Positions 1-9,838 of a stretch of DNA of 9,838 nucleotides are shown here, one piece after another; the first letter of the stretch is position 1, and each line of letters begins with the position of its first letter. This DNA comes from Smithellaceae bacterium (GTDB lineage Bacteria; Desulfobacterota; Syntrophia; Syntrophales; JAQULV01). A model generated the notes under the pieces. That model was not told the origin of the DNA, searched no databases, and saw only the letters and a list, made by a program, of their open reading frames with translations. The DNA is taken from the NCBI GenBank assembly GCA_028718405.1, contig JAQULV010000020.1:1-9838 (forward strand), written 5' to 3'. The position numbers were made by a program, and so were the translations under genes.

Positions 1-843
1 GAAGAGAGACTGATGGAAGATGCACTGAGAGAGAACGAAGAGCGGTACCGTCTTTACTTTGAAAGCATCTCCGACATCCTCTTCACCACGGACCTCAACT
101 TCAAGATCCTGGATGTCTCACCAAGTATCAAGAGGATCCTGGGATACGAGGCGAAGGATTTCATCGGCGCTACCCCGACCAGTCTCAAGATCATCACTGT
201 CTCGTCGCTGAAGAAGGCCCTCACCGAGGTACGGCGCGTGATGGATGGGGAGGTAATAACCTCCTCGGAACTGGAGTTTGTTACTCGAAACGGAGAGAGG
301 AAATTCGGAGAACTGAGAGGAGCACCCATCTATCGCCAGGGGAAGATCAGCGGCTACGTCTTCGTCGCCCGCGAGACTACGGAGCGCAACCGCGTGGAAA
401 CGGAACTGGCTGCTAAATCCAAACGCCTGGAGGAAACCAACACGGCTCTCAAAGTCCTGCTCCGTCAAATGGAGGAGGACAAGGCGGAGATGGAGGCTGT
501 CTTCGTCGAGAACATCAAGAAGACCGTTCTTCCGTACGTCGAGAAATTGAAGGGCATCCATATTAACACTCCCTTCGACTCCTACGTTGATGCCATGGAG
601 GTAAACCTCGGCAATATCCTGTCTCCCTTTGTCCACAAGTTGAACGCCTCCCTGGCCAAGCTGACCCCCAGGGAGATCGAGATCGCCAACCTCATCAAGG
701 ACGGCAGGACCACCAAGGAGATCGCCGAGATGCTCAACATCAGTCCGGCTTCGGTCGATCTGCACCGCAACCACATCAGAAGAAAACTGGGACTCAGCAA
801 TTCCGATGTCAATCTCCAACATTATCTGTCCACGCTGATCTGA
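1..843 (+). CDS. PAS-domain sensor with C-terminal LuxR-type helix-turn-helix (5' end outside window)
   Basis: This is a cytoplasmic signal-responsive transcription regulator. An ATG lies at 13, but the frame is open to base 1 (EERL before it) and the text reads like the linker after an earlier domain, so I treat the gene as partial, probably with more PAS domains upstream. Visible order (numbering from base 1): one PAS domain at about residues 13-128 (ERYRLYFESISDILFTTD, then ILGYEAKDFIG and a final YVFVARETTERNR), a coiled coil at about 129-180 rich in E, K and L, a linker, and a LuxR/GerE helix-turn-helix at about 220-280 (LTPREIEIANLIKDGRTTKEIA, ending in HRNHIRRKLGL). No receiver or kinase domain is visible, so the signal probably enters through PAS binding of a ligand or cofactor. 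No membrane segment is seen. The family call is firm; signal and targets are unknown. Confidence 0.85.
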   Translation, partial: EERLMEDALRENEERYRLYFESISDILFTTDLNFKILDVSPSIKRILGYEAKDFIGATPTSLKIITVSSLKKALTEVRRVMDGEVITSSELEFVTRNGERKFGELRGAPIYRQGKISGYVFVARETTERNRVETELAAKSKRLEETNTALKVLLRQMEEDKAEMEAVFVENIKKTVLPYVEKLKGIHINTPFDSYVDAMEVNLGNILSPFVHKLNASLAKLTPREIEIANLIKDGRTTKEIAEMLNISPASVDLHRNHIRRKLGLSNSDVNLQHYLSTLI

Positions 844-948
844 AAACCTGTGAATCCCCTCACCGTCTCCATTCCCCTATCATGAGAATGTTTGATACAA
901 CTCACCATCATTGCAGATGATATTAGAATGACACCGCCAGGGGGCTTC

Positions 949-976
949 TTGTTAATATAAGAGTCTTGCTTATATT
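949..976 (+). promoter_or_regulatory. Candidate sigma-70 promoter for the OmpA-domain gene
   Basis: The -35 box TTGTTA (949-954) is followed by a 16-nt spacer and the -10 box TATATT (971-976, 5 of 6 consensus bases). It sits in an AT-rich stretch of otherwise GC-rich DNA, which would give a leader of roughly 130 nt before the start at 1113. It was found by eye only; the rest of the 844-1112 gap shows no gene. Confidence 0.4.
954..976. repeat. 8-bp inverted repeat overlapping the candidate -10 box
   Basis: AATATAAG (954-961) and CTTATATT (969-976) are exact reverse complements separated by 7 nt. The right arm contains the candidate -10 box and the left arm abuts the -35 box, so it could be an operator. 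The AT-rich composition makes a chance occurrence possible. Confidence 0.45.
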
Positions 977-1006
977 TCATATCTAATCTCTTCATATTGC
1001 CTAATT

Positions 1007-1037
1007 TCCAACTCAGGTCTATGACTCTCCAACTCAG
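1007..1037. repeat. 10-bp direct repeat with 21-bp period in the OmpA-gene leader
   Basis: TCCAACTCAG occurs at 1007-1016 and again at 1028-1037. The start-to-start distance is 21 bp, close to two turns of B-DNA, the spacing expected for two regulator monomers bound on one face. It lies between the candidate promoter and the start codon. The role is unknown. Confidence 0.4.
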
Positions 1038-1112
1038 AAAACAATCCCGCTTCTTGTTCAAGCGATTAGCAGAATCTCTACGTGGGCGGGTAAAATGGGG
1101 AAGGGGCAATAC

Positions 1113-1910
1113 ATGAAAAAAGCATCCATCGTTTTTGTAATCCTCATCTTCACGGTAATGGCCTCGGGACCGGTCTTCGCGCGCACCCTCAGCTTGGGCA
1201 AACATGGAACCGGCCTGGGACTGACGGTCGGTGGAAAAAGTGTCGGACTTTCCGGGACGGCAACAGGCATAGCCGGCATTGAGGCAGCCTTAGGGGTTTC
1301 GTCCTCCGAAGTTGATCTGGGTGCCAACGCTGATCTTCTCAATACCACCCTGGTTGATGCCACCTTAAAGGTTGATCTGACCATCGCCAACGAACTTCTG
1401 GACAAACTGAACCTCGTCAAACTCCCGCTGGAATTGCCCGTGCTGCCTGCCGTCGTTCCGACCGTACCGGCGCAAGCGGGTGCCGTGATCGATCAGAAAG
1501 ACCCAATAGTCATTGCCAAGAGCGACATACCCGAGAAAAGGCGCGAGACGCTCAATGTTCTGTTCGATTTCGACCGCTCCAAGGTAAAGCCTGCCTTCCA
1601 TGAAGAGGTCGCCAGGATCGCCGCTATCATGAAAGAGTATCCGCTGGTGAGCGCCATTATTCAAGGGCACACCTGCAATATCGGGGGCAAGCAGTATAAT
1701 CTGAAGCTGTCCGTGCGCCGGGCGGAAAGCATCAAGAGATACCTGGTAGAAAATTTCGGCATCGCTTCCGAGCGCATCAGCACGGAAGGCTATGGTTATT
1801 TCAAGCCGACCGCCGACAACTCCACCCGTGAAGGCCGCAAGCTCAACCGGCGCGGCGGAACGAGCGTCGAGTTCTTCATTCCCCGGCATGAGGAAATCTT
1901 ACAGTCCTAA
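1113..1910 (+). CDS. Secreted OmpA-domain (peptidoglycan-associating) envelope protein
   Basis: I chose the start at 1113 over the in-frame ATG at 1095 because AAGGGG (1101-1106) is correctly spaced before it and it begins a clean signal peptide: MKK, a hydrophobic run, and a likely cut after SGPVFA (about residue 23). The product is 265 residues. After the signal, residues 24-130 are Gly/Val/Leu-rich with no barrel or lipobox and end in a Pro-rich linker. Residues about 140-260 form an OmpA C-terminal domain: VLFDFDRSKVKP, a GHT loop, NLKLSVRRAESIKRYL and EGRKLNRR. This fold binds diaminopimelate of peptidoglycan, so the protein probably sits in the periplasm or at the outer membrane. The Asp usual after GHT is Cys188 here, while the binding Arg in LSVRRA is present. 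The N-terminal half is unrecognised. The gene stands alone between a promoter candidate and a terminator hairpin. Confidence 0.85.
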   Translation: MKKASIVFVILIFTVMASGPVFARTLSLGKHGTGLGLTVGGKSVGLSGTATGIAGIEAALGVSSSEVDLGANADLLNTTLVDATLKVDLTIANELLDKLNLVKLPLELPVLPAVVPTVPAQAGAVIDQKDPIVIAKSDIPEKRRETLNVLFDFDRSKVKPAFHEEVARIAAIMKEYPLVSAIIQGHTCNIGGKQYNLKLSVRRAESIKRYLVENFGIASERISTEGYGYFKPTADNSTREGRKLNRRGGTSVEFFIPRHEEILQS

Positions 1911-1924
1911 GCGTTACCTTTGTC

Positions 1925-1971
1925 CCAGGAAGCCGGCGGGGATATGTTCCCTCCCCCTGCCGGCTCCCTGG
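1925..1971 (+). terminator. Strong stem-loop after the OmpA-domain gene
   Basis: The left arm reads CCAGG, one base, then AGCCGGC and a G run. The right arm has a C run, then GCCGGCT, one base, and CCTGG. This gives a long GC-rich stem with one internal mismatch and one bulged T, starting 15 nt after the stop codon. No clear T tract follows, so it may be a weak intrinsic terminator or an mRNA 3'-end stabiliser. Confidence 0.55.
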
Positions 1972-2046
1972 TTCCCCACAGAACCTGCCGTTTGTTTGTC
2001 TCTCCCAACATGATAAAACCGCGGCGCATTTCTCAGGCAAAAGCAG

Positions 2047-2076
2047 TTGAGATAGCGGGCACATCCGTGGTATCCT
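2047..2076 (+). promoter_or_regulatory. Candidate sigma-70 promoter for xthA
   Basis: The -35 box TTGAGA (2047-2052, 5 of 6 bases) is followed by an 18-nt spacer and the -10 box TATCCT (2071-2076, 4 of 6). It lies after the preceding hairpin and about 37 nt before the xthA start codon, a sensible position for a short leader. Confidence 0.4.
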
Positions 2077-2112
2077 GGTTTCGGTCTTCAAATAAAAACT
2101 CTTGGACCTTCC

Positions 2113-2898
2113 ATGAGAACCTTTAAGATCGCAAGCTTTAACGTCAACTCGATACGATCCCGCCTGGACATCGTCGTCCCCTGGCTCGAAAGGAACCACC
2201 CCGATTGCCTCTGTATGCAGGAAACAAAGGTCCGTGACGATAGTTTCCCCGTCGATGATTTTAAGGCCTGCGGGTACCATGTCGTCTTTCGCGGCCGCGG
2301 CCAGTACAACGGCGTCGCCCTCGCCTCCCGCGTGGAGCCTAAGAATGTGATTTACGGTCTGGCCGTTGACGGCCCCGAAGACGACGACCGGCTGATCGCT
2401 GCCGGGATAACGGGCGTTACCGTCGTCAATACCTATGTACCGCAAGGCCACGACAAGGACAGCCCCCAGTTCGCCTACAAGCTCAAATGGTACGATCGTT
2501 TCCGGGACTTTTTGAACCGCACTTATTCACCCTCTCAGCCGCTGATCTGGTGCGGCGATCTCAACGTGGCCCCCGAATCTATCGATGTGCACGATCCCAA
2601 GCGGCTGCTGGGGCATGTCTGTTTCAATCCCCAGGTGTGGGATGCCTTCGCCGCGGTGAGATCCTGGGGCCTCGAAGACATCTTTCGCAAGTATCATCCG
2701 GGCGAGGCGGGACAGTACACCTTCTTCGATTACCGCGTTCCCGACGCGGTGAGCAGAGCCAAGGGCTGGCGGGTCGATCACATCCTGGCCACGAAATCCC
2801 TGGCCGCCAAATCCCTCTCGTGCAAGATTGACATGGCGCCGAGATTAGCTCCCAAACCCTCGGATCACACGGTGATCATGGCGGAGTTCCAAATCTGA
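2113..2898 (+). CDS. xthA: Exodeoxyribonuclease III (AP endonuclease)
   Basis: This cytoplasmic Mg-dependent DNA-repair nuclease cuts at abasic sites and degrades duplex DNA from 3' ends. At 261 residues it is about the length of E. coli Xth (268). Family motifs appear in order: [13 protein letters not shown] with Asn10, CMQETKV with the metal-binding Glu37, NTYVPQG with the catalytic-region Tyr, CGDLNVAP with Asp149 and Asn151, WRVDHIL, and the terminal [10 protein letters not shown] with Asp251 and His252. All expected catalytic residues are present. No strong Shine-Dalgarno precedes the ATG (only GGA at 2104-2106), so translation may be modest. The stop is one base from the next start, indicating cotranscription and probable translational coupling with the small downstream protein. 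Confidence 0.95.
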
Positions 2899-2899
2899 T

Positions 2900-3427
2900 A
2901 TGGATGAAACCCGGGAGACCAGGAAGAGAAACGAGGAGATTGCCCGCAAATTCGCGCTCATCGATTCTTCCTTTCTGAGCTTCACTTCGATCAGCGAACT
3001 CTGCGAGAATCTCATCCTCCTTGTCGAGGAAGAGTTTGCTATTCCCTTCGTATGGCTTACCTTGATCGACAGTCCCGAAACGGCCTTCCTGCGCGGCGAA
3101 ATCGTCGTCTCGCCAATCGTCAGAGACCGTCTCAACATCGTGTCGACCGAGGAGTTTCACGACCTCGCGGGCGACCAGACCGCCCCCGTGTTGAATAACA
3201 GCGATCTTCAACCCTTCTACAAGCTGCTGCCGGAAAGGGAGAAATACCTGATTCGCTCCATTGCCGTTGCCCCTTTTCGTATTGAAGAAATACCGGCCGG
3301 GTCGCTCAATCTCGGTGATCACTCCCCCCTGCGCTATCAACCGGACATGGACACGACCCTGCTCAATCACCTGATGAAACGATTCTCGGAAAGGCTCACC
3401 CATCTCCTCCGCATCTCTAGATCCTGA
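2900..3427 (+). CDS. Small GAF/DUF484-like protein
   Basis: This soluble protein of 175 residues has no signal peptide or membrane segment. A charged helical start (about residues 1-20, RETRKRNEEIARKFALID) leads into a pattern seen in GAF-type and DUF484 proteins: SISELCENLILLVEEEF, then IPFVWLTLID, and a later strand LIRSIAVAPFRIEE followed by AGSLNLGD. A final helix (about 150-170) could mediate dimerisation. No catalytic motif or output domain is seen, so any ligand sensing would act through a partner. The start lies 1 nt after the xthA stop, so the two form one unit, although a link to DNA repair is not evident. The DUF484/GAF assignment is from remembered sequence character and is moderate. 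Confidence 0.6.
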   Translation: MDETRETRKRNEEIARKFALIDSSFLSFTSISELCENLILLVEEEFAIPFVWLTLIDSPETAFLRGEIVVSPIVRDRLNIVSTEEFHDLAGDQTAPVLNNSDLQPFYKLLPEREKYLIRSIAVAPFRIEEIPAGSLNLGDHSPLRYQPDMDTTLLNHLMKRFSERLTHLLRISRS

Positions 3428-3684: not shown

Positions 3685-5586
3685 ATGTCCAGCAACTCGA
3701 AGTTTGACGAGGTTTTCAACGAGTCCATCAACAACCCCGACGCCTTCTGGGCAAAGGCAGCCGAAGACATCCGCTGGGATAAGAAATGGGATAAGGTCCT
3801 GGACGACTCCCGCCTTCCCTTCTACCGCTGGTTCACAGGCGGCGAGCTCAACACCTGCTATAACGCCGTCGATTTCCATGTCGAAAGCGGCCGCGGCGAC
3901 CAGACCGCCATCATCTACGACTCCCCCGTAACGGACACGGTCAGAAAGATCACCTACAAGGAACTGCTGGACCTGGTGGCCCGTTTCGCCGGCGCACTCG
4001 ACAAACTGGGAGTAAAGAAGGGCGACACAGTCATTATCTATATGCCCATGATCCCCCAAGCGATGGTGGCGATGCTTGCCTGCGCGCGGCTCGGTGCAGT
4101 GCATTCCGTCGTGTTCGGCGGTTTCGCCCCCAATGAGCTCGCGATCCGCATCAACGATGCCAAGCCCAAGATCATCGTCTCCGCCTCCTGCGGCATCGAG
4201 GGCAAGAAGACGATCCCTTACAAACCGCTCCTCGACGAGGCAATCAAGATCGCGGACCACAAGCCTGAGAAGTGCGTCATCTTCCAGCGTCCCCAGGTGG
4301 CGGCGGAGCTCGTCGCCGGTCGCGATTTCGATTGGGAAGCGCTGATGAAAGACGCTCCGGCCGTTGCCTGTGTCACGGTCAAGGCCACCGATCCACTCTA
4401 CATCCTCTATACGTCCGGCACCACGGGCAAGCCCAAGGGCGTGATGCGCGACAACGGCGGCCATGCCGTGGCGCTGAAGTGGTCCATGAAGAACATCTAC
4501 AACGTCGAGCCCGGCGAGGTTTACTGGGCCGCGTCCGACGTAGGCTGGGTTGTGGGGCACTCCTACATTGTCTACGCGCCCCTGCTCAAAGGGTGTACGA
4601 CGATCCTCTACGAGGGCAAGCCTGTCGGCACCCCCGATCCCGGCGCCTTCTGGAGAGTCATTTCCCAGCATAAGGTATCCGTTCTGTTCACAGCTCCGAC
4701 GGCCTTCCGCGCCATCAAGAAGGAAGACCCCAACGGCGAGTATCTGAAGAAGTACGACATCAAGTCGCTCCGCTACCTGTTCCTGGCCGGCGAGCGTCTT
4801 GATCCCGATACATACTACTGGGCGAGTGACATGCTGAAGATCCCCGTTATCGACCACTGGTGGCAGACGGAAACCGGCTGGCCTATTGCCGCCAACTGTA
4901 TGGGTATCGAGCCGTTCGCCATCAAGGCGGGATCGCCTACGAAGGCCGTCCCCGGCTACAATGTCCAAATCGTCGACTCCGAAGGCCAGCAGCTTCCCAA
5001 CACCGAGGAGGGTTACGTGGTCGTAAAACTGCCGCTGCCTCCGGGGTGTTTGCCCACGCTGTGGAACGACGACGAACGTTACCTGGAATACGTGGAGAAA
5101 CTGCCCGGCTTCTACCTCACGGGCGACGGTGGTTACTACGACAAGGACGGCTACCTCTACATCATGGGGCGCATCGACGACGTCATCAACGTCGCGGGGC
5201 ATCGGCTCTCCACGGGCGCCATGGAAGAGATCCTGGCGAAGCACAAGGACGTGGCCGAGTGCGCCGTCTTCGGCGTCAACGACCAGCTGAAGGGCGAGGT
5301 TCCTATCGGCTTCACGGTACTCAAGGCCGGCGTAGACCGTGACCATGGCACCATCGCCGAAGAACTGGTGAAGATGGTGCGCAACGAGATCGGCGCCGTG
5401 GCCTGCTTCAAGCAGGTAGCCATCGTCAAGGCCTTGCCCAAGACACGCTCGGGCAAGACCCTGCGCAGCACGATGCGCAAGATCGCCAACGGCGTGCCCT
5501 ATGAGGTTCCCTCAACGATCGACGACGCGTCGGTACTCGACATCATCGCTGAGGCAGCCAGGACGATCGGCTACGGGAAGAAGTAG
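3685..5586 (+). CDS. AMP-forming short-chain acyl-CoA synthetase, PrpE/ACSS3-like (probably propionate-CoA ligase)
   Basis: It activates a short-chain acid with ATP and CoA to acyl-CoA, AMP and PPi in the cytoplasm. The 633 residues match PrpE and ACS length. Order: ACS N-terminal domain (about 6-60), AMP-binding core with the phosphate loop YTSGTTGKPKG (242-252), VGHSYIVYAPLL and VLFTAPTA, WWQTETG (392-398), LTGDGGY (Asp481), the hinge MGRIDD (494-499), and PKTRSGK with the adenylation Lys591, a residue acetylated in many relatives. The text resembles remembered PrpE and human ACSS3 more than acetate enzymes (SDVGWVVGHSYI, LPLPPG). LFLAGE puts Ala368 where acetate-specific ACS has Val, a change known to admit propionate, while the pocket Trp is kept. 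The Shine-Dalgarno AAGGAGG (3674-3680) is perfect, suggesting high expression. It shares its last base with the next gene. Acetate or another C3-C4 acid remains possible. Confidence 0.9.
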   Translation: MSSNSKFDEVFNESINNPDAFWAKAAEDIRWDKKWDKVLDDSRLPFYRWFTGGELNTCYNAVDFHVESGRGDQTAIIYDSPVTDTVRKITYKELLDLVARFAGALDKLGVKKGDTVIIYMPMIPQAMVAMLACARLGAVHSVVFGGFAPNELAIRINDAKPKIIVSASCGIEGKKTIPYKPLLDEAIKIADHKPEKCVIFQRPQVAAELVAGRDFDWEALMKDAPAVACVTVKATDPLYILYTSGTTGKPKGVMRDNGGHAVALKWSMKNIYNVEPGEVYWAASDVGWVVGHSYIVYAPLLKGCTTILYEGKPVGTPDPGAFWRVISQHKVSVLFTAPTAFRAIKKEDPNGEYLKKYDIKSLRYLFLAGERLDPDTYYWASDMLKIPVIDHWWQTETGWPIAANCMGIEPFAIKAGSPTKAVPGYNVQIVDSEGQQLPNTEEGYVVVKLPLPPGCLPTLWNDDERYLEYVEKLPGFYLTGDGGYYDKDGYLYIMGRIDDVINVAGHRLSTGAMEEILAKHKDVAECAVFGVNDQLKGEVPIGFTVLKAGVDRDHGTIAEELVKMVRNEIGAVACFKQVAIVKALPKTRSGKTLRSTMRKIANGVPYEVPSTIDDASVLDIIAEAARTIGYGKK

Positions 5587-7031
5587 TGGCGGCTGATTTT
5601 GACCGGATCTTCAACCCCAAAAGGATCGCCTTCGTAGGGGTATCGGCCGGAGGCTACGGCTTCGCCAACGAGATGCTGAGTTCCCATCTGAAGATGGGAT
5701 TCGCCGGTGCGATCTATCCCGTCAACCCCAAGGGCGGCGAGATCTTCGGCCTTACGATCTACAGGAGCGTGGAAGAAATCCCCGAGTCGATAGACTTCGC
5801 GATTATCGCCGTCGCCGCCCGTTTCGTTCCGGAGACGTTGGAGGCCTGCCGTCTCAAGGGTGCCGCCGGCGCCGAGATCGTCTCGGCGGGATTCCGCGAA
5901 GCGGCGACCAACGAAGGGGCCGACCTGGAGCAGCGGGTCAAGGCCATCTGCGCCAAGGGCATCCGAGTCGTCGGTCCCAATTGTTTCGGCATCTACTGTC
6001 CCGAGTCGGGACTCACCTTCGTTCCCGGCCCCGATCTTTCCCGGACACCGGGAGGAGTAGCCTTCGTCTCCCAGAGCGGTGGCATGTCCATCGACTTCGC
6101 TCTGCTGGGGCGCTCTTTAGGCCTTCGCTACAGCAAGATCATCAGCTTGGGAAACGGCGTCGACCTTCGGGAAACGGAGTTGCTCAAGTATTTGGGCGAC
6201 GACGAGAAGACCAAAGTCATCGCCATGTACGTCGAAGGGGTGGAAGATGGAACCCTCTTCTTCGAGACGCTGAAGAAGGTGACGGCGGCAAAGCCCGTCG
6301 TCATCTACAAGGGCGGCCTTTCCGACGCTGGACAAAGGGCCGTACAGAGCCATACGGCATCGTTGGGCGGCAGTCGCGCTATCTGGGAGGGAACGCTCCG
6401 GCAAGCGGGAGCGGTGCAGGTTTCGAATCTCTATGAGGCTGTCCAGACCTGCCTGGCTTTCAGCTTGCTGCCGATCCGCCCTTACCGCTCCATGGCCGTT
6501 ATCGGCGGCGGCGGGGCCTTGGGGGTGGCCGCCTGCGACGCCGCGGAGCGGTTCGATCTAGCGATCCCGCGTCTGAAAGACGAGGTCCGGGATAAGATCG
6601 ACCTTCTCCTCCCCAAGCCGGGCTCCAGCGCCGACAACCCGATAGACGTAGCGAATCCCTACGTGGCGCCGCAGACCATCGCTGAGATACTGAGGGAAGC
6701 CGCCGGCGACGAGCGGATCGACATCCAGGTCCTCGTCCAGCTCCTTTATCACTACAAGTCACTGGCCATCAATATGGGGCTCGCGTCCCTCAAGGATATT
6801 ACGCCGACGGCGATCCTCGCCGAGGGTGTCGAAGATGTGGTGGCCAAAACGGGTAAGCCCGTGGTTATGGTTCTCCCCAACCACCGCCAGGAACCGGGCG
6901 AGCTCGACGTCGAAGAGATGCTCCGGTCTGCTAAGAAGGCCTTTCTGGAACGGGGGATCCCCGTTTTCGACGATCTCGACGAGGCCCTGCGGGCAATTCA
7001 TCACGTCGCCCGTTACTGCCAAGGATTATAG
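5586..7031 (+). CDS. ADP-forming acyl-CoA synthetase, alpha (CoA-binding, phosphohistidine) subunit
   Basis: With the beta subunit it converts acyl-CoA, ADP and phosphate to acid, ATP and CoA, a substrate-level ATP step of fermenters. The 481 residues match the length of separate alpha subunits such as that of Pyrococcus ACD. Order: Rossmann CoA-binding domain (about 8-135, PKRIAFVGVS, YPVNPKG, VGPNC at 129-133), succinyl-CoA-ligase-like domain (about 150-290) with SQSGG (162-166), and the SHTASLGG loop carrying His256, equivalent to the phosphorylated His of the family. A third domain follows (about 300-481). The start is GTG within TAGTG, overlapping the upstream stop by 1 nt; GGGAAGAAG (5575-5583) may serve as the ribosome site. 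No ATG in a plausible position would keep the Rossmann strand. The beta gene follows after 21 nt. Confidence 0.93.
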   Translation: MAADFDRIFNPKRIAFVGVSAGGYGFANEMLSSHLKMGFAGAIYPVNPKGGEIFGLTIYRSVEEIPESIDFAIIAVAARFVPETLEACRLKGAAGAEIVSAGFREAATNEGADLEQRVKAICAKGIRVVGPNCFGIYCPESGLTFVPGPDLSRTPGGVAFVSQSGGMSIDFALLGRSLGLRYSKIISLGNGVDLRETELLKYLGDDEKTKVIAMYVEGVEDGTLFFETLKKVTAAKPVVIYKGGLSDAGQRAVQSHTASLGGSRAIWEGTLRQAGAVQVSNLYEAVQTCLAFSLLPIRPYRSMAVIGGGGALGVAACDAAERFDLAIPRLKDEVRDKIDLLLPKPGSSADNPIDVANPYVAPQTIAEILREAAGDERIDIQVLVQLLYHYKSLAINMGLASLKDITPTAILAEGVEDVVAKTGKPVVMVLPNHRQEPGELDVEEMLRSAKKAFLERGIPVFDDLDEALRAIHHVARYCQGL

Positions 7032-7052
7032 AACACGAAGGAGTTTTGTGAA

Positions 7053-7721
7053 ATGGATATTATCGCCAAAGTCCAGAAAGAAAACCGCAACGTCTTATCC
7101 GAATATGAATCGAAGCTGCTTTTGGCCGCCTACGGGATACCGGTGACAAAGGAACTGCTCGTCGAGAGTGACGCCGCGCTCGCTTCCGCCCTGCAGGAGG
7201 TCGGCTATCCGCTCGTGATGAAGGGCTGCTCCTCGGAGATCGCCCACAAGACGGAAAAGGGACTCATCCGTATCGACATCAGGGGCGAGGCCGAAGCGAA
7301 GGCTGCCTTCGGCGAGATCATGGCCGCCATGAACGGCGCCGCCGGTGCCGTCCTCGTGCAGGAGATGGTAAGGGGCCAGAGGGAGCTCGTTGTCGGCATG
7401 ACGCGCGATCCCCAGTTCGGCCCCTGCGTAATGTTCGGCCTGGGCGGGATCTTCACCGAGATATTAAGGGACGTCTCCTTCCGCAAGGCTCCCCTGGAGA
7501 AGCGCGACGCCCTCCAGATGATGGGTGAAATCAAGGGAAAGAAGATCCTGGAGGCGATCCGCGGCATGGAGGCCGCCGATCTCGAGGCCCTGGCGGCAAT
7601 GCTCATCAACGTGGGACGGGTCGGCCTGGAAAACGCCACGGTGAAGGAGATCGACATAAACCCCGTCATCCTGAGCAAAGGAAAGCCCGTGGCCGTCGAC
7701 GCCCTCGTCGTTCTCATTTGA
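7053..7721 (+). CDS. ADP-forming acyl-CoA synthetase, beta (ATP-grasp) subunit
   Basis: This nucleotide-binding partner of the preceding alpha subunit has 222 residues, the length of stand-alone beta subunits; in many bacteria the two are fused into one chain of about 700. It is an ATP-grasp fold: SEYESKLLLAAYGIPVTKE at the start, YPLVMKG with the nucleotide Lys57, AHKTEKGL with His65 (matching the second phosphohistidine, His71 beta of the archaeal enzyme), VLVQEMVRGQREL, the Gly-rich GLGGIFTE, and the metal-binding EIDINPV near the end. Both histidines of the phosphate relay are thus present across the pair. AAGGAG (7038-7043) precedes the ATG with 9-nt spacing. It closes the operon; a small hairpin follows the stop. 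Confidence 0.93.
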   Translation: MDIIAKVQKENRNVLSEYESKLLLAAYGIPVTKELLVESDAALASALQEVGYPLVMKGCSSEIAHKTEKGLIRIDIRGEAEAKAAFGEIMAAMNGAAGAVLVQEMVRGQRELVVGMTRDPQFGPCVMFGLGGIFTEILRDVSFRKAPLEKRDALQMMGEIKGKKILEAIRGMEAADLEALAAMLINVGRVGLENATVKEIDINPVILSKGKPVAVDALVVLI

Positions 7722-7945: not shown

Positions 7946-8626
7946 ATGGCTAACAAGGCAAGATCAGCGGAAGTAATTGATCTTGAGAAGCAACGTATGA
8001 GCATGGTGGCTTTAGAGATGATCTCGAAGAACGGGTATAACAACCTCAGTATCCGCAAGCTCTCGAAGAAGCTTGATGTCTCCCCCAGCACGATCTACAA
8101 TTATTTTACGGACAGCGAAGAGATCTACATCTACGTCCTGAACAAGGGCTACGAGCGACTGTTCAACGAACTCAAGAAGGCTTGCGATTCCCATACTGAT
8201 GCCGTCGAGAAACTAAGGACCCTGTGCCGGACCTTTTTCTCTTTCTCCGTTCGCGAGCGCAATCTCGTGCTCATTATGTTTATCCTGGATGTGCCCAGGT
8301 ACCACGACTATGAGGGAAGCAAGCACGAATCCCTGAAGGATTCGCTGGCCAATGCGCTCAAGTGCCGCGACCTCGTCGCCAGGATCATGATCGATATGGC
8401 GCATCAATACCCATCGTTTTCCAAGAAGGACGTTGAGCGCTGCACGTTTCGCGTCATCTGCCAGCTCATCGGTCTGTTCACGATGTATGATAATCAAATC
8501 ATGAGAAACATCTCGACGAACGTCGAGGCCAGCGCGGAGCTGCTACTCGGAGAGATCGTCCGCCCCTTCGAGGAGATCAGGGCTGTGGACGCAAAGAAAC
8601 TCGATATCGCCTGCGGCGTATCGTAA
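7946..8626 (+). CDS. TetR/AcrR-family transcriptional regulator
   Basis: This cytoplasmic DNA-binding dimer, usually a ligand-released repressor, has 226 residues. An N-terminal helix-turn-helix (about residues 16-62) shows the family pattern: ALEMISKNGYNNLSIRKLSKKL, then DVSPSTIYNYFTDSEEIY. The remaining two-thirds is a helical ligand-binding and dimerisation domain with no recognisable ligand signature. The Shine-Dalgarno AAGGAG (7932-7937) sits 8 nt before the ATG. A palindrome over its own promoter suggests autoregulation. The activase/glycyl radical enzyme gene begins 78 nt downstream with no convincing promoter between, so it is probably in the same transcript and under the same control. 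The effector could be a CoA thioester or the substrate of that enzyme; this is inference. Confidence 0.9.
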   Translation: MANKARSAEVIDLEKQRMSMVALEMISKNGYNNLSIRKLSKKLDVSPSTIYNYFTDSEEIYIYVLNKGYERLFNELKKACDSHTDAVEKLRTLCRTFFSFSVRERNLVLIMFILDVPRYHDYEGSKHESLKDSLANALKCRDLVARIMIDMAHQYPSFSKKDVERCTFRVICQLIGLFTMYDNQIMRNISTNVEASAELLLGEIVRPFEEIRAVDAKKLDIACGVS

Positions 8627-8673: not shown

Positions 8674-8704
8674 TTAGGATCAAATCTTATCAAAGGAGCA
8701 AAAA

Positions 8705-9838
8705 ATGGAAACGGCTCAAACCCAGACTTTAAGTCGAGAAGATTCATCTTATGAGAGTCAGAGCTCGCCGGCCGAAAAGCTGAGAGTCATGAAGATCCAG
8801 CGCACCTGCGTGCACGACGGTCCCGGCATCCGCACCACGATCTTTTTCCAGGGATGCGGACTCCGCTGCCTGTGGTGCCAGAACCCGGAGGCGCTCACAT
8901 ATCGGCCCGAATTCGTCGACGACGGCGACTATTCAATCCCCGGAATCGTCGAACTCGTCTCACGCGACAAGGATTACTACGCCAAGACAGGCGGCGGCGT
9001 GACCCTCTCCGGAGGCGATCCCCTGCTGCAGAACCCGAGCAGCCTGATCCCCCTGTTGGAAGCGCTGCGCAAAGAGAATATCCACGTCGCCGTGGAAACG
9101 TGCCTGCAGGTACCCTGGGCAAATGTGGAAAAGGTCGCCCCCTACGTGGATCTGTTCCTGGCCGACTTGAAGGTCGTGGGCGACGACGAACTCCACAAGA
9201 AACTCACCAAACAGGATCCGAAGCTGATCAAAGAAAACATCCAGAAGCTTCTTGACCTGAAGGCCAACGTTAAATTCCGCATGGTCATCGTGCCCGGCTA
9301 CAACGACGGCGACGCCCGCGTCAAGGCGACGGTTGATTTCCTGAAATCCGTAGGCCACGACTCCATCGAACTGCTCAAGTACCACAACATGTACGAGGAT
9401 AAGGCCAAACGCCTGGGCATCGACATCGACCATCTCAACATCACTAACGACCAGAGCCTCGCCGCCGTTAAGACGGCCGTCGAGTCCTTCAAGGCGCAGG
9501 GCATTACGACATACTGCTACGATCTCGACGCCAAGAGAAACAAGGCCGTTTTTACTAAGCGCGTCTATGACATCCAGGACGCCATTCGGCAAAGCGGTCG
9601 GGCTCTATGTTTCGAAGTCTCCAGGCTGAAGACGGACTACTATAAGAAGAACGGCTTCAAAAAACCCAACCCCATCCACCGCTCCGAACGTCTGGACTAT
9701 GTTTTGAAAAACAAGACCGTCAAGATCTATCCCAATGAGCTCCTTGTCGGCAATTTCACCGCCAAGCGGTGCGCCGGCCAGATATGGGAAGAGCACTACG
9801 GCGCCCTGTTCGCTTCGATCCTCCATCAGATCCATAGG
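8705..9838 (+). CDS. Fused glycyl-radical-enzyme activase (radical SAM) and glycyl radical enzyme (3' end outside window)
   Basis: One open frame of 378 codons runs off the right edge. Residues about 28-285 are a radical SAM activase, which uses SAM and a 4Fe-4S cluster to place a radical on a glycine of its target: HDGPGIRTTIFFQG, then Cys51-x3-Cys55-x2-Cys58, GGGVTLSGGDPL (SAM site, about 95-107), FLADLK, and RMVIVPGYND. There is no ferredoxin-like insert after the Cys triad. From about residue 300 the chain becomes the N-terminus of a PFL-like glycyl radical enzyme: CFEVSRLKTDYYKK, HRSERLDYVLKN and NELLVGNFTAKR, then WEEHYG. The linker is only about 15 residues. No in-frame ATG, GTG or TTG occurs near the junction. 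AGGAG (8694-8698) supports the start; Met29 is an alternative. The catalytic Cys and glycyl loop lie beyond the window, so the substrate is unknown. Confidence 0.88.
   Translation, partial: METAQTQTLSREDSSYESQSSPAEKLRVMKIQRTCVHDGPGIRTTIFFQGCGLRCLWCQNPEALTYRPEFVDDGDYSIPGIVELVSRDKDYYAKTGGGVTLSGGDPLLQNPSSLIPLLEALRKENIHVAVETCLQVPWANVEKVAPYVDLFLADLKVVGDDELHKKLTKQDPKLIKENIQKLLDLKANVKFRMVIVPGYNDGDARVKATVDFLKSVGHDSIELLKYHNMYEDKAKRLGIDIDHLNITNDQSLAAVKTAVESFKAQGITTYCYDLDAKRNKAVFTKRVYDIQDAIRQSGRALCFEVSRLKTDYYKKNGFKKPNPIHRSERLDYVLKNKTVKIYPNELLVGNFTAKRCAGQIWEEHYGALFASILHQIHR

Follow-up and report, generated by a model that had tools for sequence, protein, structure and literature searches.

Fusion of a glycyl radical enzyme to its radical S-adenosylmethionine (SAM) activase is known in principle, because NrdDG, a class III ribonucleotide reductase joined to its activase in one reading frame, has been described from some fungi and oomycetes. 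The accessible part of that report (PMC3019208) counts few species and regards the gene as transferred from bacteria, and an NrdD-NrdG fusion is also mentioned in the accessible part of PMC4390871. Here we describe an activase-glycyl radical enzyme fusion gene of the pyruvate formate-lyase (PFL) type, whose 5′ part lies at one end of the window, that is, the whole stretch of 9838 bases analyzed, which is the entire contig C20 of a Smithellaceae genome of 2.04 Mb in 415 contigs. The first-pass annotation, made from the letters alone, had cautioned that this type of fusion might have been noted before, and NrdDG, as given in the part of PMC3019208 available, bears the caution out. The prokaryotic PFL-type fusion is a variant for which no description was found in the open literature searched, subscription papers lying mostly outside that scope; the accessible parts of PMC9850924, PMC12583861, PMC4034769, PMC11574389, PMC6181972, PMC12358834, PMC6325248, PMC8163825, PMC11226230, and PMC12288474 mention no PFL-type activase fusion.

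The gene is the last open reading frame (ORF) of the window (8705..9838, forward strand, as are all features given below for the window) and comprises 378 codons from an ATG start codon, six bases 3′ of a Shine-Dalgarno-like AAAGGAG (8692..8698), to the contig end, where it is cut without having met a stop. Pfam and NCBIfam profiles place a radical-SAM activase at about residues 30–260 and the beginning of a PFL-like enzyme at 285: Radical_SAM matches residues 46–203 (E 1.5e-17), the activase model TIGR02494 scores 220.7 bits (cut-off 174.35), and the PFL-like domain at residues 285–360 scores 25.6 bits, barely above the Pfam cut-off of 24.3. Both partners are thus matched within a single frame, as the first-pass annotation had proposed. 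A variable N-terminal tail and the activase domain fill residues 1–271 (8705..9517), the boundary being transferred from the fold alignment of the relative L041 (residues 15–263, offset +8) with the Escherichia coli PFL activating enzyme 3cb8. They contain the CX3CX2C cluster motif (Cys51, Cys55, and Cys58; 8855..8878) and an SGGDP motif (9008..9022), which we take to be the SAM-binding GGE-type motif. A linker of 14 residues follows (9518..9559), close to the roughly 15 first claimed, and then the first 93 residues of the glycyl radical enzyme half (9560..9838), with the ELLVGN motif of a PFL-like N-terminus at 9737..9754. The junction was said to lack start-type codons, and indeed the frame is free of ATG, GTG, and TTG over the whole stretch that separates the ATG at 9389 from the TTG at 9704.

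Because the window is a whole contig it cannot itself be extended, and the continuation was taken from contig C174 of the same genome. A search of that genome matched the last 54 residues of the window protein to the end of C174 at 98% identity; the ends of the two contigs share a 163-nt overlap in which 159 bases are identical and 4 differ, and the minus strand of C174 continues the frame (only the ends were compared, and the contigs were kept separate). The 4 mismatches suggest that variation between strains interrupted the assembly. On C174, which carries a PF01228 match, the frame passes the active-site Cys (GCVEP), then the glycyl loop RVAGYCSYF, and then reaches a stop, for a predicted product of about 1,110 residues. 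The rightward extension that had been proposed therefore yields a complete enzyme half with its active-site Cys and RVxGY-like glycyl loop, and not the truncated half without Cys and Gly that would have spoken against the fusion.

The fusion is real and conserved across a wide taxonomic range. A scan of GTDB species genomes gave 177 relatives, and the analysis covered the best 79 loci, 59 of which (L038–L096) share at least 50% identity with the window protein and the remaining 20 at most 40%. In 53 of the 59, one frame of 1064–1182 residues runs across the junction with all four motifs present (L064 begins at a contig edge), so that homologues with the same domain order, sought at the suggestion of the first-pass annotation, are plentiful; four others (L049, L060, L082, and L095) are incomplete, their frames running off the contig. 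Among the 20 more distant loci there is no complete fusion, and 16 are neighboring gene pairs. All 59 come from metagenome-assembled genomes (MAGs), according to their records, and their hosts are Smithellaceae and other Desulfobacterota (Thermodesulfobacteriota), Myxococcota, Spirochaetota, Clostridia, and Asgard archaea (Lokiarchaeota, Sigynarchaeum). Their record titles give sludge digesters, bog and fen soils, and sediments as habitats, and termite guts according to our reading of the sample codes. Of the 155 genomes in the window's class, 17 match, among them the window's own. In 15 of the other 16, a set consisting partly of the same assemblies as the GTDB loci, a stop-free frame crosses the junction; the sixteenth (G183) matches in pieces only, and no internal stop occurs in any of the listed matches. 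A stop or frameshift at the junction, which would have undone the proposal, is thus absent from 53 of 59 loci and 15 of 16 class genomes. Of 7994 candidates scored in a search of roughly 5.8 billion proteins, 625 reached E 1e-20 or better; Pfam finds both halves in 118 of the 120 listed proteins, three of them on contigs longer than 2 Mb.

An alignment of 102 rows was assembled from the 53 loci and 113 of the 120 listed proteins over 1080 residues, leaving out rows more than 86% identical to a kept row and two cut copies (L049, L064). In L041 numbering, the cluster cysteines C43, C47, and C50, equivalent to those of the window motif, the active-site C704 of GCVEP, and the glycyl-loop G1079 of RVAGYC are invariant (102/102), and the linker is 14 residues long in 101 of 102 with variable letters. 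A further Cys, Cys1081, two residues past the radical Gly, also stands in all 102 fused members; among 29 split rows, one of them masked at that position, it occurs in L097 only. AlphaFold2 predicted two members, each with a predicted template modeling score (pTM) of 0.89, which hints at a set placement of the halves. With the full chain of relatives modeled, much as had been suggested, both halves are complete by predicted fold in the relative searched: a fold search with the L041 model found a whole PFL activating enzyme fold joined to a whole glycyl radical enzyme fold. For the activase half, the general glycyl-radical activase model outscores PflA, whose cut-off is not reached. At the position of the auxiliary clusters, all 57 fusions measured have 39–43 residues with at most one Cys; in 21 of the 23 measured split activases the segment is 93–109 residues long with 6–9 Cys (6 of the 29 split activases missed one of two motifs by pattern and were excluded from this measurement). 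As judged from sequence, the activase half is without the extra cluster domain that most measured split relatives carry.

In the enzyme half, alignment with glycerol dehydratase shows the catalytic Cys and Glu and, at substrate positions, a His and an Asp to be conserved, and two other substrate positions, presumably His281 and Ser282 of the dehydratase, are Asn and Ala in the fusions; both this numbering and the functions of the aligned positions are assumed here. From the kept Cys, Glu, His, and Asp and the two changed positions we predict that the enzyme half is likely an eliminase, performing a 1,2-elimination of the dehydratase or lyase type on a small polar substrate.

We read the locus as one gene in which a fixed-length linker tethers an activase to a PFL-type enzyme and the activase is predicted to install the radical on its own chain or on its dimer partner, a reading to which we give a probability of about 0.8. 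Most likely the protein would work as a self-contained, 1:1 self-activating eliminase. The [4Fe-4S] cluster of the activase half would cleave SAM, the C-terminal domain would swing out so that the 5′-deoxyadenosyl radical could abstract hydrogen from the RVAGYC Gly (1079 in L041), and, on closing of the domain, the radical would pass to Cys704 of GCVEP, with Glu706 acting as the base in the elimination. We somewhat favor activation in cis over exchange across a dimer. We are evenly divided over the wider proposal of a large, old self-activating family that would combine 1:1 stoichiometry, probable cis activation, no separate activase, an undescribed elimination, and the unusual Cys past the radical Gly.

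Several observations weigh against this reading. L082 is without about 58 residues at the junction, L068 no longer follows the family sequence close to the end of its contig, and in L073 the frame is broken some 80 residues past the start of the enzyme half. The pairwise identities of the two halves correlate at only r 0.73 across 44 members, and L147, which lies within the split clade nearest to the fusions in the enzyme tree, is an enzyme-then-activase pair. The constant linker length could reflect folding and not function. Over the full length of its enzyme half, the L041 model aligns with crystal structures presumed to be in the closed form, the activating pose being absent, and no conserved neighbor among 57 copies points to a substrate.

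The alternative that survives best, although we consider it doubtful, is that the chain is fused and the activase acts mainly in trans, either on the second subunit of the dimer or on different glycyl radical enzymes in the cell, with the tether providing stoichiometry only. With a linker of 14 residues and a model aligned to presumably closed structures, the activase might not reach its own glycyl loop. The same genome does encode other glycyl radical enzymes, but three of them (C27, C100, and C246) each have their own adjacent activase, and the fixed linker length together with the pTM of 0.89 would suggest a set placement beside the same chain.

It is improbable that a precursor is cleaved, or translation restarts, to give two ordinary proteins. 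The letters of the linker vary, as they would in a spacer or a cleavage site, and some ATG, GTG, or TTG is present in 32 of the 44 junction stretches, each about 46 codons long; yet only 13 of the 44 contain ATG, and at the position where such a codon occurs most often, within the conserved beginning of the enzyme half, eight members have ATG (nine if L085 is counted). The window itself is free of start-type codons from 9392 to 9703, and two separate proteins would not require the linker length to be kept.

Very improbable is a true pyruvate formate-lyase as the enzyme half, which automatic names from several sources (formate C-acetyltransferase) and the PFL-like Pfam domain would indicate. 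The fusions have GCVEP without the adjacent Cys pair of that enzyme, and four members score 117–129 bits with TIGR01255 (pyruvate formate-lyase) against a cut-off of 994.2. The same four fall short of TIGR01774, the formate C-acetyltransferase/glycerol dehydratase subfamily (467–487 bits against 678.2), and of the equivalogs for CutC, HypD, HpfG/HpsG, PRK09983, and indoleacetate and hydroxyphenylacetate decarboxylases (187–369 bits against cut-offs of at least 1000). The enzyme half is not a class III ribonucleotide reductase either, so the gene is no NrdDG; its glycyl loop, active-site Cys, and barrel fold place it in the glycyl radical enzyme superfamily. Least probable of all, and already refuted for the family, is an assembly or frameshift artefact: the window does stop 279 bases into the enzyme half, with the rest on another contig at 4 mismatches in 163, and one false fusion is known, but the same frame is open in the loci and class genomes counted above and the downstream motifs are intact. 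That false case is a reverse-order fusion in a Spirochaetes MAG (L106, 5739–8798), which was rejected as most likely a frameshift, its glycyl loop being lost at the frame change.

As to origin, trees were built from 29 fused and 29 split rows, with a warning from the tool of long branches that meet, and a more careful tree from 8 fused and 14 split rows. Fused members form one clade in the enzyme tree (Shimodaira–Hasegawa-like approximate likelihood ratio test, SH-aLRT, 100; careful tree 100/100) and in the activase tree (support 100); the careful tree is weak at the fork that places this clade among the split ones (54/91), and the activase tree puts L097 nearest to the fused clade (support 91), which the enzyme trees do not. 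L108, L104, and L134 are activase-then-enzyme pairs whose open frames overlap by 19–55 bases, although the true starts may lie later. From such activase-first split relatives, some with overlapping frames, we infer a single fusion of an activase-first gene pair followed by transfer between phyla; the ancestral operon likely had the activase before the enzyme in abutting or overlapping genes. Two Desulfobacterales activase-then-enzyme pairs, L097 (7968–11518) and L098 (8013–11905), are possible nearest split relatives, and the active-site letters of L097 (ENYDNAIS, GCVEPN, and RVAGYC) resemble those of the fused family. On an Enterococcus gilvus plasmid (L146, 1498–4757), an annotated hypD stands 78 bases 3′ of a short radical-SAM gene (about 260 residues), again with the activase first.

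Directly upstream of the fusion gene, the window carries a TetR-type regulator (7946..8626; PF00440, E 6.6e-9), a possible control gene. Among 47 upstream neighbors scanned, this one included, 10 match GntR/FCD and 6 TetR_N. When 585 ORFs around 57 copies (the window's included) were clustered, an upstream GntR-type regulator (10 loci) was the sole neighbor cluster in at least four loci, and downstream, in 39 neighbors scanned of 42 with at least 100 residues, no Pfam family occurs more than three times (B12-binding). The gene thus looks self-contained, with a GntR- or TetR-type regulator upstream as its only conserved neighbor. At L078 (9761–12912, a Clostridia MAG), genes for a corrinoid protein, a RACo-like activator, and a URO-D-like protein lie directly 3′ of the fusion, and L079 has ORFs of the same lengths as this downstream set. 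Farther upstream in the window (3685–7721), an AMP-forming acetyl-CoA synthetase-like gene directly precedes what appear to be two subunits of an ADP-forming acyl-CoA ligase, so that two acyl-CoA-forming routes stand side by side; these genes were considered as pathway partners and dropped, and we claim no link because they occur in no cluster of at least four loci. The remainder (1–3427) holds a PAS-LuxR regulator with its start cut, an OmpA-family protein, an exonuclease/endonuclease-family gene, and a 175-residue protein without a Pfam match at the limit used.

To our knowledge, no one has directly captured the opening that makes the buried Gly of a glycyl radical enzyme available to the activase. 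A study of an alkane enzyme, in its accessible part, had to model the open, activase-bound state (PMC12358834). A natural single chain containing both partners could help to trap that state and to separate cis activation from exchange within a dimer, and likely eases study of a normally fleeting activation step; it could also serve as a one-gene radical catalyst for engineering.

Compared with known systems, the split pairs L134 (G013 C8), L108, and L104, and also L097 and L098, consist of the same two proteins in the same order, but as two genes instead of one, and L134 and L041 share 37% identity in the enzyme half. The activases of L134, L108, L104, and L097 have a segment of 93–94 residues with 7–8 Cys where the fusions have the short one described above, and L097 shares RVAGYC with the fusions. 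The B12-independent glycerol and 1,2-propanediol dehydratases (1r8w, 5i2g, 9rco) and Archaeoglobus PFL2 (2f3o) are about 30% identical to the enzyme half, and their chains have no fused activase. E. coli 3cb8 has in common with the fusion activase the whole fold, the cluster motif, the DGPGIR loop, and aligned Lys, Arg, and His residues (the His kept in 89 of 102), and both are without an auxiliary cluster domain, but 3cb8 is a separate protein of 245 residues. NrdDG is a eukaryotic ribonucleotide reductase, whereas the family described here is of the PFL type and occurs in bacteria and Asgard archaea; its activase comes first in the chain.
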